Below, one piece after another: positions 8,694-27,602 of a stretch of 64,000 nucleotides of DNA. The stretch comes from an uncultured Pontibacter sp. (GTDB lineage: Bacteria; Bacteroidota; Bacteroidia; Cytophagales; Hymenobacteraceae). A program made the position numbers and the translations under genes. The notes beneath the pieces were generated by a model that had not been told where the DNA came from, did no database searches, and worked only from the letters and a program-made list of their open reading frames with translations. Where the stretch lies: assembly GCF_947499215.1 (NCBI RefSeq), contig NZ_CANMNI010000002.1, positions 1,054,001 to 1,118,000 on the forward strand, in the 5' to 3' direction. Within the stretch, counting starts at the first letter, position 1; each line of letters opens with the position of its first letter.

Positions 8694-8747
8694 CAAAAAG
8701 TTTAGAGGCTACTTTGATTTTATTGTTGGAGGCGAAAAGGGGGTATT

Positions 8748-8870
8748 TAGGGTTTTGGCGAGACTCCTTTTGAGTGGCATAGCAGCGCTATGGCGCGATA
8801 AAGAGATGAAGCCAAGTTCCGAAAAATGCCCTTTGCAGCCCAATGAATAAATTTAAAATAGCCTCTTAGG
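8748..8870. repeat. Dispersed intergenic repeat, copy A
   Basis: 123 bp matching 27035-27157 without an obvious length difference. The core GCATAGCAGCGCTATGG (8777-8793) is identical in both copies and contains the inverted repeat CATAGC-AGC-GCTATG. The 29 bp before the core differ at about 8 positions. The tail shares TTTGCAGC and an AATT-rich end. The right edge overlaps the stop codon of suhB (8866-8868). Confidence 0.75.
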
Positions 8871-9669
8871 GAAGCGGCTCTTTCCAGTGCTCGGCTATGG
8901 TGTCGAACATTTCTTGATGGATGTTGCCGTTGCTGGCCACGATCTCCCGCCCAAAGATATAGTCCCCGTCTTCCATGAACTTGGAAACACGGCCACCCGC
9001 CTCCTGCACGATAATGGCACCGCCTGCCACATCCCAAGCATTCAGGTTGAACTCGAAGAAGCCCTCAAAACGTCCCGCTGCCACATACGCCAGATCCAAG
9101 GCTGCTGATCCGAGTCGGCGCACGCCATGCGACTTGGCCATAAAGCTACCCAACACCTGCAGGTACTGCTGCGTGAGCCCAAATTCATAATAAGGGAAAC
9201 CTGTGGCGATAAGCGAGTCTTTCAGCCCTTCGGCAGGCGACACCTTGATGGGGTTGTCGTTCAGGAAAGCCCCGCCGCCTTTGGTAGCATAGAAGCATTC
9301 GTCTTTGTTGATTTCGTACACGATGCCCAACACCACCTCGTCATCGTCGAGTAAGGCCACGCTTACTGAGAAAAGCGGCAAACCGTGTGTGAAGTTGGTG
9401 GTGCCATCCAGCGGGTCGATAATCCAGTTGAAGCGCTCGCCGCGGGTATTGTCGGTTTCCTCTTCGGTGATGAAGCCAGCCTCTGGCAGGAGCGTGCGCA
9501 GTGCATCCACCAGCTGTTGCTCTGCCTCCTTGTCCACGTAAGACACCAAATTGTTGAAGCCCTTCATCTCGACCCTGCTCTTGTCGAAGTTCTCGGCTTC
9601 GTGCTTGATGAAGGCTCCCACTCGTCTGACGATTACATTGGCATTCTGGCAAAGTTGCTGCAGGTTCAT
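8866..9669 (-). CDS. suhB: Inositol monophosphatase family protein (SuhB-like)
   Basis: A 267-residue cytosolic protein with the complete family signature. It has the metal-binding Glu pair (FITEEET), the DPLDGT motif in WIIDPLDGTTNFTHG, and the C-terminal NAWDVAGGAIIVQEAGG motif that supplies the last metal-ligand Asp. The enzyme is a Mg2+-dependent, Li+-sensitive phosphatase acting on inositol monophosphates or related sugar or nucleotide phosphates; the real substrate here is not determined. It is the last gene of a minus-strand operon with DUF4105, whose stop overlaps its ATG by 4 bp (translational coupling likely), and rsmI. Its stop codon sits inside a dispersed repeat. Confidence 0.93.
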   Translation of the reverse strand: MNLQQLCQNANVIVRRVGAFIKHEAENFDKSRVEMKGFNNLVSYVDKEAEQQLVDALRTLLPEAGFITEEETDNTRGERFNWIIDPLDGTTNFTHGLPLFSVSVALLDDDEVVLGIVYEINKDECFYATKGGGAFLNDNPIKVSPAEGLKDSLIATGFPYYEFGLTQQYLQVLGSFMAKSHGVRRLGSAALDLAYVAAGRFEGFFEFNLNAWDVAGGAIIVQEAGGRVSKFMEDGDYIFGREIVASNGNIHQEMFDTIAEHWKEPLP

Positions 9670-25533: not shown

Positions 25534-26940
25534 CTAACGAATTTTTTGATAGACTGCCGCTGTTTGCGTGGGCTCATAACCTTCGAAAACAGACGGCAGT
25601 TTGTGTTTTAACTGGGGCATGAGTCCGACTTGGTCCACAATGTAAGCCGGGCTTTCCTGTCGGAAATTCTGGTAGAGCTCATACACCGCCTGATATTCGT
25701 CTAAGCGGCCGAAGTGTCGCTGCGCCAGCTGCCAGTTCAGGTATGGGGTAGCCTGTTTATTGTGTGCGTAGTAGCTCTTATCCTCGCCGAGCACGAGCAC
25801 GGTGGTGTTAGAAAGTCCCGGCACGGGCTGCGTAGGAAGAAGCAGAAGCCGGGAGTCATCCACTGGCACATACTGTGCTATACCTATAGGCTCCCGATAA
25901 CGCAGCAGCAGCACCCCACCTAACAGGACAAAGAACATCAGATTGAGAATCCACTTCTTCGTGCGGCTGGTAAACAGGAACTCGCCAAAATAGGCGATGG
26001 GCGGAAGCATGATCAGGAAAGTGCCCACCGACAGCTGGTTACGTGTGATCACAATAATAATACTCACGAGGAGCCATACCGTCATCAGCTGCTGAAACTT
26101 GCCTTGAAAAACCAGTCGCTGCGGCAGGGAGGTGGTGCTGATGAGCGACAGCAGCAGCAAAATAGCCGGGAGCGCCAGCGCCGTGGCCAAATGCGCGGGC
26201 GGCAGCAGAAATTCGGCACCAAATTGCCAAGGCTGCAGCAGGTGCATCTCTAAGAAATAAGAAGTCGTGTTGGTGTACAGGTAATAGGTTATCAGGACCG
26301 CATATGGAAAGGCAAAACCGCAGAGCATGAGCAGGAAGCTGCGGAACGTATTAGAGGCGAACAGCACAACCCCAAAAGCTGCCACCAACAGGAAAATAGC
26401 CAGCGGCAGATAGCTCATTGCCGCCAAGCCCACCATGAAGCCTCCCACAAAAAGCCGGTTGTTCTCAAAACCCTCTCTGGAGATGGTAATGATATAAGGT
26501 AGCGACATGATCAGGAACGTGTTGCCGATCAGCAGCGGTGTGAGCATGTCGAACTCAGCCGTGATGCTCCCCAGCAATAGGTATAGCAAGGCAGGTATGT
26601 AGCCTTTGCCGGCGTATACCTGATTTCGGTTGAGCGTGGTATTGAGCAGCACTGCCTGCAGTAGCAGCAAGAAGGTCGCCGTCAGTCTGTAGGTCAGGTA
26701 AGAGCGCCCGGCCACCACATCAATGGTCCAGTACACAAAGGCGGAAAGCGGGGCGGTCGTGTCGTAAATGTCGCGGTACATGGCAAACCCGTCAGCCATG
26801 CGCTCGCCCACCAGCATGTAGAGCAACTCAGGAGCCGTGGCCGGAATACCCAACAGAATGAGCGGGATTCGGATAGCCAGAAACAGCAATATCAGGGCAA
26901 CAAGACGGGAAGGCAGTATGCTTCGGAAGTAACTAATCAA
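25534..26940 (-). CDS. Polytopic membrane protein, GT-C-like topology
   Basis: A 468-residue integral membrane protein with about ten to twelve predicted helices and a C-terminal soluble tail of roughly 90 residues. An early loop reads GERMADGFAMYRDIYDTTAP, resembling the first external loop of GT-C glycosyltransferases (GT39 type), where acidic residues are catalytic. That placement is tentative. Bacteroidota carry related uncharacterised proteins near ribosome-maturation genes, but I cannot name the family with confidence. It is a single minus-strand gene convergent with rpiB. Its upstream region carries copy B of the dispersed repeat. Confidence 0.75.
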   Translation of the reverse strand: MISYFRSILPSRLVALILLFLAIRIPLILLGIPATAPELLYMLVGERMADGFAMYRDIYDTTAPLSAFVYWTIDVVAGRSYLTYRLTATFLLLLQAVLLNTTLNRNQVYAGKGYIPALLYLLLGSITAEFDMLTPLLIGNTFLIMSLPYIITISREGFENNRLFVGGFMVGLAAMSYLPLAIFLLVAAFGVVLFASNTFRSFLLMLCGFAFPYAVLITYYLYTNTTSYFLEMHLLQPWQFGAEFLLPPAHLATALALPAILLLLSLISTTSLPQRLVFQGKFQQLMTVWLLVSIIIVITRNQLSVGTFLIMLPPIAYFGEFLFTSRTKKWILNLMFFVLLGGVLLLRYREPIGIAQYVPVDDSRLLLLPTQPVPGLSNTTVLVLGEDKSYYAHNKQATPYLNWQLAQRHFGRLDEYQAVYELYQNFRQESPAYIVDQVGLMPQLKHKLPSVFEGYEPTQTAAVYQKIR

Positions 26941-27034
26941 AGGAAGACGGAGTTAGAAAGAACTATACACCAGCTTGAACCGAAATGAGCAGAGCTTATT
27001 TAAATTTCGTTTTTGCAAGCGAAAATTGGACCTA

Positions 27035-27157
27035 TAGGGTTCTGTCGAAACGATTTATGAGTCGCATAGCAGCGCTATGGGGCGAATGAATAGTGATGAC
27101 AGGTTCCTGTAGGAGCGATTTGCAGCGCAAAGGATGAATTTTAAACAAGCTCTCAGG
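27035..27157. repeat. Dispersed intergenic repeat, copy B
   Basis: 123 bp matching 8748-8870. The core GCATAGCAGCGCTATGG is at 27064-27080. It lies between the start of the membrane protein gene and the rbfA promoter, in the same orientation as copy A. Confidence 0.75.
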
Positions 27158-27206: not shown

Positions 27207-27602
27207 ATGGAAAGTAAAAGACAACAGAAATTTTCGCGCCTAATACAAAAGGAATTGGCAGAGATCTTCCAGCGGGAAGTGCCACACCTTTTTAGTGGCG
27301 CCTTCATATCAGTGAGTATTGTACGCGTGTCACCCGATCTTGGCTTGGCACGCACATACCTGAGCGTGATGAACTCCAAAACTAGCAATGAGATGCTACT
27401 GCAGGAACTGCGCGCCAACACCAAGACGATCCGTCACTTGCTGGCCCAGCGCATTAAAAGCCAAGTGCGCGTTGTTCCGGAACTGGTGTTCTACCTAGAC
27501 GACAGTGCCGAGTACGCCGCCAACATCGACAAGCTATTCTCCAACATAGACATCCCGCCGGCCCCAGAGGAAGACGAGGACGACGATACCTATACCCGCT
27601 AG
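27207..27602 (+). CDS. rbfA: Ribosome-binding factor A
   Basis: A 131-residue small KH-like protein. The start MESKRQQKFSRLIQKELAEI and the middle VSPDLGLARTYLSVMN, then RVVPELVFYLDDS, match RbfA. It helps process the 16S rRNA 5' end and mature the 30S subunit, notably in the cold. The C-terminus is acidic. A near-consensus -7 element (GATATTTG, ending 27196) lies 10 nt before the ATG, implying a very short leader. The methyltransferase gene begins 17 bp after its stop, and a LolC/E-type permease follows, an arrangement common in this phylum. Confidence 0.95.
   Translation: MESKRQQKFSRLIQKELAEIFQREVPHLFSGAFISVSIVRVSPDLGLARTYLSVMNSKTSNEMLLQELRANTKTIRHLLAQRIKSQVRVVPELVFYLDDSAEYAANIDKLFSNIDIPPAPEEDEDDDTYTR

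Follow-up and report, generated by a model that had tools for sequence, protein, structure and literature searches.

What is the sequence that stands twice in this stretch of DNA, how did it spread, and why has its middle been kept? The window, that is, the whole 64,000-nucleotide stretch analysed here, contains two 123-bp segments (8748-8870 and 27035-27157) that a preliminary description had paired as a dispersed repeat. They align without gaps and are identical at 87 of 123 positions, whereas 123-mers drawn from the window and paired at random 20,000 times gave a mean of 30.8 identities and a maximum of 50; the repeat pair is therefore real. The core reported for both segments, with its inverted repeat CATAGC-AGC-GCTATG, was also exact in the two copies (copy A, 8777-8793, GCATAGCAGCGCTATGG with an AGC triloop; copy B, 27064-27080; both on the + strand). 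The core alone is weak evidence, since at least two matches were obtained in 23 of 100 shuffles when three mismatches were allowed; the long alignment, in contrast, is strong evidence for a repeat. A third copy was located in the source genome at G000:C1:1517807-1517960. Three copies in all were found there, in searches that included a model scan of 9 of 890 candidates, and these do not bear out the tens to hundreds per genome that had been expected. Two further core matches in the same genome, each with two mismatches, were rejected for want of a covariance model match.

The 123-bp limits had to be redrawn. The full copies are 161 bp each, copy A at 8705-8865 and copy B at 26992-27152, both on the + strand (covariance model matches of 108.4 and 118.3 bits), with 110 of 161 positions identical. 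Both are short, have no coding capacity, and are bounded by inverted repeats at which the two arms pair: GAGGCTA...TAGCCTC in copy A (A-type ends) and GAGCTTATTT...AAACAAGCTC in copy B (B-type ends). The terminal inverted repeats occupy 8705-8720 and 8850-8865 in copy A, and 26992-27007 and 27137-27152 in copy B; between them lies an inner hairpin module (8729-8842 and 27016-27129, respectively), the part described by model R1. Comparison of the flanks revealed a target duplication around copy A (TTA at 8702-8704 and TTA at 8866-8868), and flanks with one mismatch around copy B (GCA at 26989-26991, TCA at 27153-27155). Copy A is antisense to an ORF on the - strand (8866-9669), putatively suhB in the preliminary description, which had placed the stop codon of this gene inside the repeat. 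The stop codon (TAA on the - strand) does coincide with the right 3-bp flank of copy A, but the element itself ends one base earlier. Copy B is flanked by an ORF on the - strand (25534-26940) and one on the + strand (27207-27602), presumably rbfA, which starts 55 bp after it; copy B thus lies between divergent ORFs.

The 3-bp flanks were compared in further copies. They were identical in 44 of 66 copies from the genus and different in the other 22, copy B included (three of the 66 represent one orthologous site). In G174, which belongs to a different family within the same class, 26 of 35 copies had identical 3-bp flanks, the count covering 35 of the 46 loci given. At one orthologous site, other than the two window copies, nine relatives were compared: three sites were filled, one held a 56-bp internally deleted copy, and five were precisely empty. 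The filled site is larger than the empty one by 164 bp, i.e. 161 + 3. This is an old insertion, the flanks of which are no longer identical (TTA/TTT), and the empty site reads TCA or similar. Together, the empty sites and the duplications show that the element is mobile. At the L026 insertion site, a terminator-like stem, ATCTTTCAG...CTGAAAGAT, appeared by eye to hold the element in its loop; the stem is also present in the empty sites. Short remnants consisting mainly of the two ends were seen at L512 and L093 (one place in G005), L098, L102, and L104, that of L512 being 56 bp long. Remnants such as L512 indicate that internal deletions remove the middle of the palindrome.

The duplications already contradict one early proposal, a palindrome of the REP or BIME type spread by a RAYT transposase. 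The element is palindromic, intergenic, and dispersed, as this proposal requires; its length of 161 bp, its terminal inverted repeats, its IS5-type ends, and its 3-bp duplications speak otherwise, and we regard such an origin as extremely improbable. We know of no target duplication in REP or BIME sequences. A REP-type palindrome of 20-40 bp was likewise rejected for an element of 161 bp with a 3-bp duplication. In the available text on RAYT-associated REP/BIME sequences (PMC3733652), the likeness is limited to dispersed palindromes, and those sequences differ in being tagged and 20-40 bp long.

The ends point instead to insertion sequences (ISs). Within the genus, eight of 16 fetched regions held ISs 864-880 bp long that end in sequences of the GAGCATGTTTAAATTT type, five of them with equal 3-bp flanks; no such IS was found in the other eight regions (L174-L181). 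The one transposase protein tested belongs to the IS5 family (NF033580, 157.5 bits against a cut-off of 110; PF13340 and PF01609). In addition, an 874-bp IS with ends GAGGCTGTTTTGATTT was present in three of 30 PF01609 loci (length window 800-960 bp), flanked by TTA/TTA or TAA/TAA in all three, and further end pairs about 880 bp apart were also seen. Copies A and B carry two end types, which match two IS5-family elements of other genomes in the genus, both with TNA target duplications there. Over 16 positions, each window copy has two or three mismatches to its own IS end type and five or six to the other: the left and right ends of copy A have two and three mismatches to the 874-bp IS end, compared with six and five to the 878-bp type, and both ends of copy B have two mismatches to the 878-bp IS end, compared with five to the 874-bp type. 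The helper ISs resemble ISLrh, an 857-bp member of the IS1031 group of the IS5 family that follows the TNA target rule in the available part of its description (PMC12016507), in length, in the style of the end sequences, and in the TNA duplication; the MITE differs in lacking a transposase, and its likeness to the IS is confined to the ends. A search of seven IS loci did not find the hairpin module.

Outside the genus the correspondence between ISs and MITEs (miniature elements with such ends) is partial. A PF13340 search of 14 other genomes returned no match in seven; of the seven genomes with PF13340 loci, three had IS ends like those of their own MITE, one only nearly so. In G174, ISs beside MITEs with such ends carry GAAGTGATTTAAACTTTTT at one end and GAACTCATTTAAACTTTTT at the other, and another IS carries GAASTCATCTTGACTTTTT. 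In G065, GAAGTTGTCTAAAGTTT occurs in both IS and MITE ends, the IS frame being decayed, and in G063 the ends are a near match (GAAGGTGTTTAAA and GAAGTTGTTTAA). In G289, G250, G324, and G067, the IS ends differed from those of the MITE or none were found. The duplications of G174 are 3 bp long but not TNA, so the strict IS1031 rule fails in that genome. The profile search of the source genome gave no DDE_Tnp_1 (PF01609) match; with no helper found there and with slightly decayed ends, copies A and B are probably relics.

We therefore consider it highly probable that the element is a non-autonomous, IS5-mobilised MITE, with ends of two subfamilies in the window, a hairpin module that outlives changes of ends, and a fold under selection. 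Each copy would be a 161-bp MITE moved in trans by an IS5-family (IS1031-like) DDE transposase, which would recognise the ends of about 16 bp and insert the MITE with a 3-bp target duplication (TNA in the genus). The window copies would represent two subfamilies, the ends of which match two different IS5 elements, and the ends match local IS5 elements where the two could be paired. The matching ends lead us to infer that IS5 transposases do act on the MITE. The module between the ends, however they change, would persist, its fold and much of its tip being common to distant Bacteroidota.

The fold of this module was analysed in an alignment. The whole element forms one long imperfect hairpin, with MFE z-scores of -6.0 for copy A and -8.4 for copy B. 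Alignment A2 comprised the inner modules of 41 of 48 representatives (L095, L101, one L207 match, L231, L264, L275, and L295 were dropped, of which some are chance hits and L264 and L275 look real). In A2, 87.3% of cells were paired, compared with 70.4% in shuffles; 32 of 41 pairs changed on both sides somewhere, and both-side changes occurred in 271 cells, against a shuffled mean of 88.8 and a maximum of 118 with slid partners. The structure was taken from copy B, itself one of the 41 rows, which favours the observed version over slid versions; the gap between 87% and the at most 48% paired in slid versions is more than one sequence can give. In 100 tree-based simulations without structure (tree of the A2 sequences, started from the paired consensus, under HKY with a fixed kappa of 2.5 and parsimony rates), at most 125 both-side cells were obtained, and 65% of cells were paired against the observed 87.3%. 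The covariation model that had been suggested as a check thus shows base pairs that covary strongly, beyond the phylogenetic null. The early alternatives of a MITE-like element or a structured RNA were both right in part: the duplications, IS5-type ends, empty sites, and high copy number of some relatives speak for the first, the covarying, strand-specific fold for the second. In one excluded member (L264:4483-4616), a second small hairpin is inserted near the tip, giving 192 nt in all.

The tip of the hairpin is well conserved (CATAGCAGCGCTAYG and variants) and is present in distant Bacteroidota. It is invariant over ten positions in A2, an invariance partly built in because the core motif was itself the means by which many members were gathered. 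Among 31 rows aligned with the model, all from genomes that the core pattern had not picked out, 15 tip columns had a mean identity of 0.84, compared with 0.64 elsewhere, the model itself favouring the tip and two of the 31 rows being opposite-strand matches; tip variants in these rows include CATAGCATCGCTACG. Within the genus, ATAGCAGCGCTA was exact in 58 of 66 copies collected by BLAST.

One strand folds better than the other. In a set of 61 representatives that keeps members of the kind dropped from A2, the + strand had the lower folding energy in 57 (mean -64.6 kcal/mol, compared with -45.4 for the - strand), and in G174 it folded better in 33 of 35 copies. G-T exceeded A-C at paired columns everywhere except in the innermost region: the G-T:A-C counts were 189:30 in the mid stem, 80:25 in the outer, 23:11 in the terminal, and 49:54 in the inner region, where 28 of the A-C cells come from one apical column. 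In A2 the ratio was 166:50, compared with a simulated mean of 240:156, and two pairs were mostly G-T (33 and 29 of 41 sequences). A palindrome without function could mimic part of this pattern, if it had begun as a foldback, its arms corrected each other by template switching and strand-biased C to T mutation supplied the G-T excess; correction between arms also yields both-side changes, and internal deletions through the palindrome do occur. Yet correction would erase mismatches and internal loops, which by eye recur at the same places, and it would leave unexplained the higher identity of the tip columns in the 31 rows (with the model favouring the tip) and the persistence of the two G-T pairs. 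This explanation is thereby weakened, and we hold it to be very unlikely.

Given the strong covariation and the much better folding of one strand, selection probably acts on the middle in the form of a folded single strand. A double-stranded DNA transposon needs no strand-specific fold, which leaves RNA, single-stranded DNA, or an odd mutational process mimicking both. With DNA parameters, the + strand was again preferred in 57 of 61 representatives (mean -30.8 compared with -24.0), which keeps single-stranded DNA in play: the element would fold on one strand during replication and bring its ends together for the transposase, and the terminal repeats are indeed included in the fold. In G296, moreover, 12 of 13 copies point in the same direction relative to the GC-skew halves, which were set by eye from 20 sampled stretches, at least two of which disagree. 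This bias is equally explained by gene orientation (ten tandem copies sense, none antisense); G174 gave no clear pattern (28 + and 21 -), the skew sampling being too noisy for replichores, and the two mostly G-T pairs suit G-U in RNA better. Folding as single-stranded DNA is thus rather unlikely in our view. RNA is the more likely selected form, since the G-T pairs persist and diverged copies show a mild bias towards the sense orientation; provided that the fold is selected at all, the balance leans somewhat towards RNA.

The orientation of copies relative to flanking genes lends weak support to RNA. Before copies were split by age, 46 were sense and 27 antisense (p 0.034). After the split, diverged copies were 25:8 sense to antisense (p 0.005) and young copies 45:40 (diverged versus young, Fisher p 0.036), in a set of 239 records at 218 sites with uncurated ORFs as flanking genes, from which four chance-hit loci and elements near locus ends were left out. 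The bias rests largely on G296 (10:0): once this genome is removed, the diverged copies are 15:8 (p 0.21). Taken by itself, the most diverged class was 11:3 (p 0.057). Under the preferred IS5-mobilised MITE reading, the likeliest reason for the middle would be transcription that starts from adjacent genes and runs through the copies, which would then form intercistronic or 3' UTR RNA. The fold of the + strand, a long duplex with recurring internal loops and a conserved tip, would be selected as RNA, because it spared the message harm from an insertion or even benefited it, or because it served the element through a binding partner. That one conserved, strand-specific hairpin is kept between ends resembling those of different IS5-type transposons suggests selection on the hairpin itself, perhaps as RNA.

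The distribution of the element was investigated by searches with copy B, the core pattern, and the covariance model (R1, the inner 114 nt). Copy B matched 25 of 59 genomes, its own included, all of the same genus except G056, which had short matches; the query had no match in plasmid or phage collections, and the core was not found in viral contigs. With 150 candidates scored per genome, the model matched 49 times in G174 and 46 times in G036, where two or more places were counted once per strand, so that copy number exceeds 40 in these two genomes. The core-pattern scan of named genomes gave at least 117 stretches; the 80 titles among the matches listed are, as we take them by name, all Bacteroidota, with the genera Pontibacter, Botryobacter, Rufibacter, Adhaeribacter, Lewinella, Flavilitoribacter, Phaeodactylibacter, Gilvibacter, and Robiginitalea, and also Saprospiraceae and Chitinophagales, among the matches listed. 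In a sample of the phylum, at least 9 of 395 genomes had a model match, a lower bound because nine candidates were scored per genome. In Robiginitalea, a diverged copy with ends GAACCCGAAG (L253:1198-1359) directly adjoins an RNase P RNA gene at 864-1194 (Rfam RF00010, 201.2 bits). A further sequence in G324 (L347:1501-1600) has the same architecture, ends GGGCGTGTTGAC, and a quite different tip, GATGCAGCGCATC; judging by this tip, the family may extend beyond members with the core motif.

A host small RNA gene, picked up secondarily by IS5 ends, might also yield an RNA hairpin of this kind. Diverged copies at L217 (Gilvibacter), L310, and L317 lie, by eye, just before terminator-like stems, and the neighbouring genes of L217 and L310 match in two records. 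The patchy distribution in the phylum sample (at least 9 of 395 genomes) is unlike that of a host gene, however, and a comparison of 13 loci and copy A with Rfam matched the element to no family; such an origin appears distinctly unlikely. In SINEs, an RNA body is moved by borrowed machinery. By analogy, and only tentatively, the element may be a mobile RNA module that Bacteroidota share: an ancient hairpin RNA, conserved at its tip, which survives by wearing the ends of resident IS5 elements, changes its helper over time, and keeps its own fold; such an RNA would act in trans or on its own message through a partner that recognises the tip.

MITEs are usually regarded as decaying stubs of one IS. 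As a mobile element, the present one is of an ordinary kind, a MITE of IS5-family helpers; the combination of a conserved one-strand hairpin body, distant Bacteroidota, and ends of different IS5 elements is new as far as literature searches show. The core as a string of letters had no match in the literature searched, and no description of a hairpin MITE family was recognised in the available parts of that literature. For Correia and ERIC sequences, we know of neither strand-specific covariation across a phylum nor a change of helper ends. In the available text of PMC10969869, these are likewise intergenic palindromic elements, the transcripts of which form stable stem-loops with reported RNase III and RNase E effects. 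MITECca01 of Cardinium, as described in the accessible part of PMC9769881, is an IS982-family MITE, reportedly restricted to a single strain and descended from a single IS; it is similar in being short and non-coding, with IS-matched ends and a Bacteroidota host, whereas the hairpin MITE occurs in distant Bacteroidota, carries the ends of several IS5 elements, and has a covarying fold. With different helper-type ends around a middle with a one-strand fold, selection on the body of a non-autonomous element can here be put to the test. The copy-rich genomes G036 and G174 (more than 40 copies each) provide natural material in which an RNA from the element, a partner for it, and an influence on host messages could be sought. 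In G036, contigs C5, C18, and C37 (bases 1-80) start inside the element near its midpoint, as if the palindromes break the assembly.
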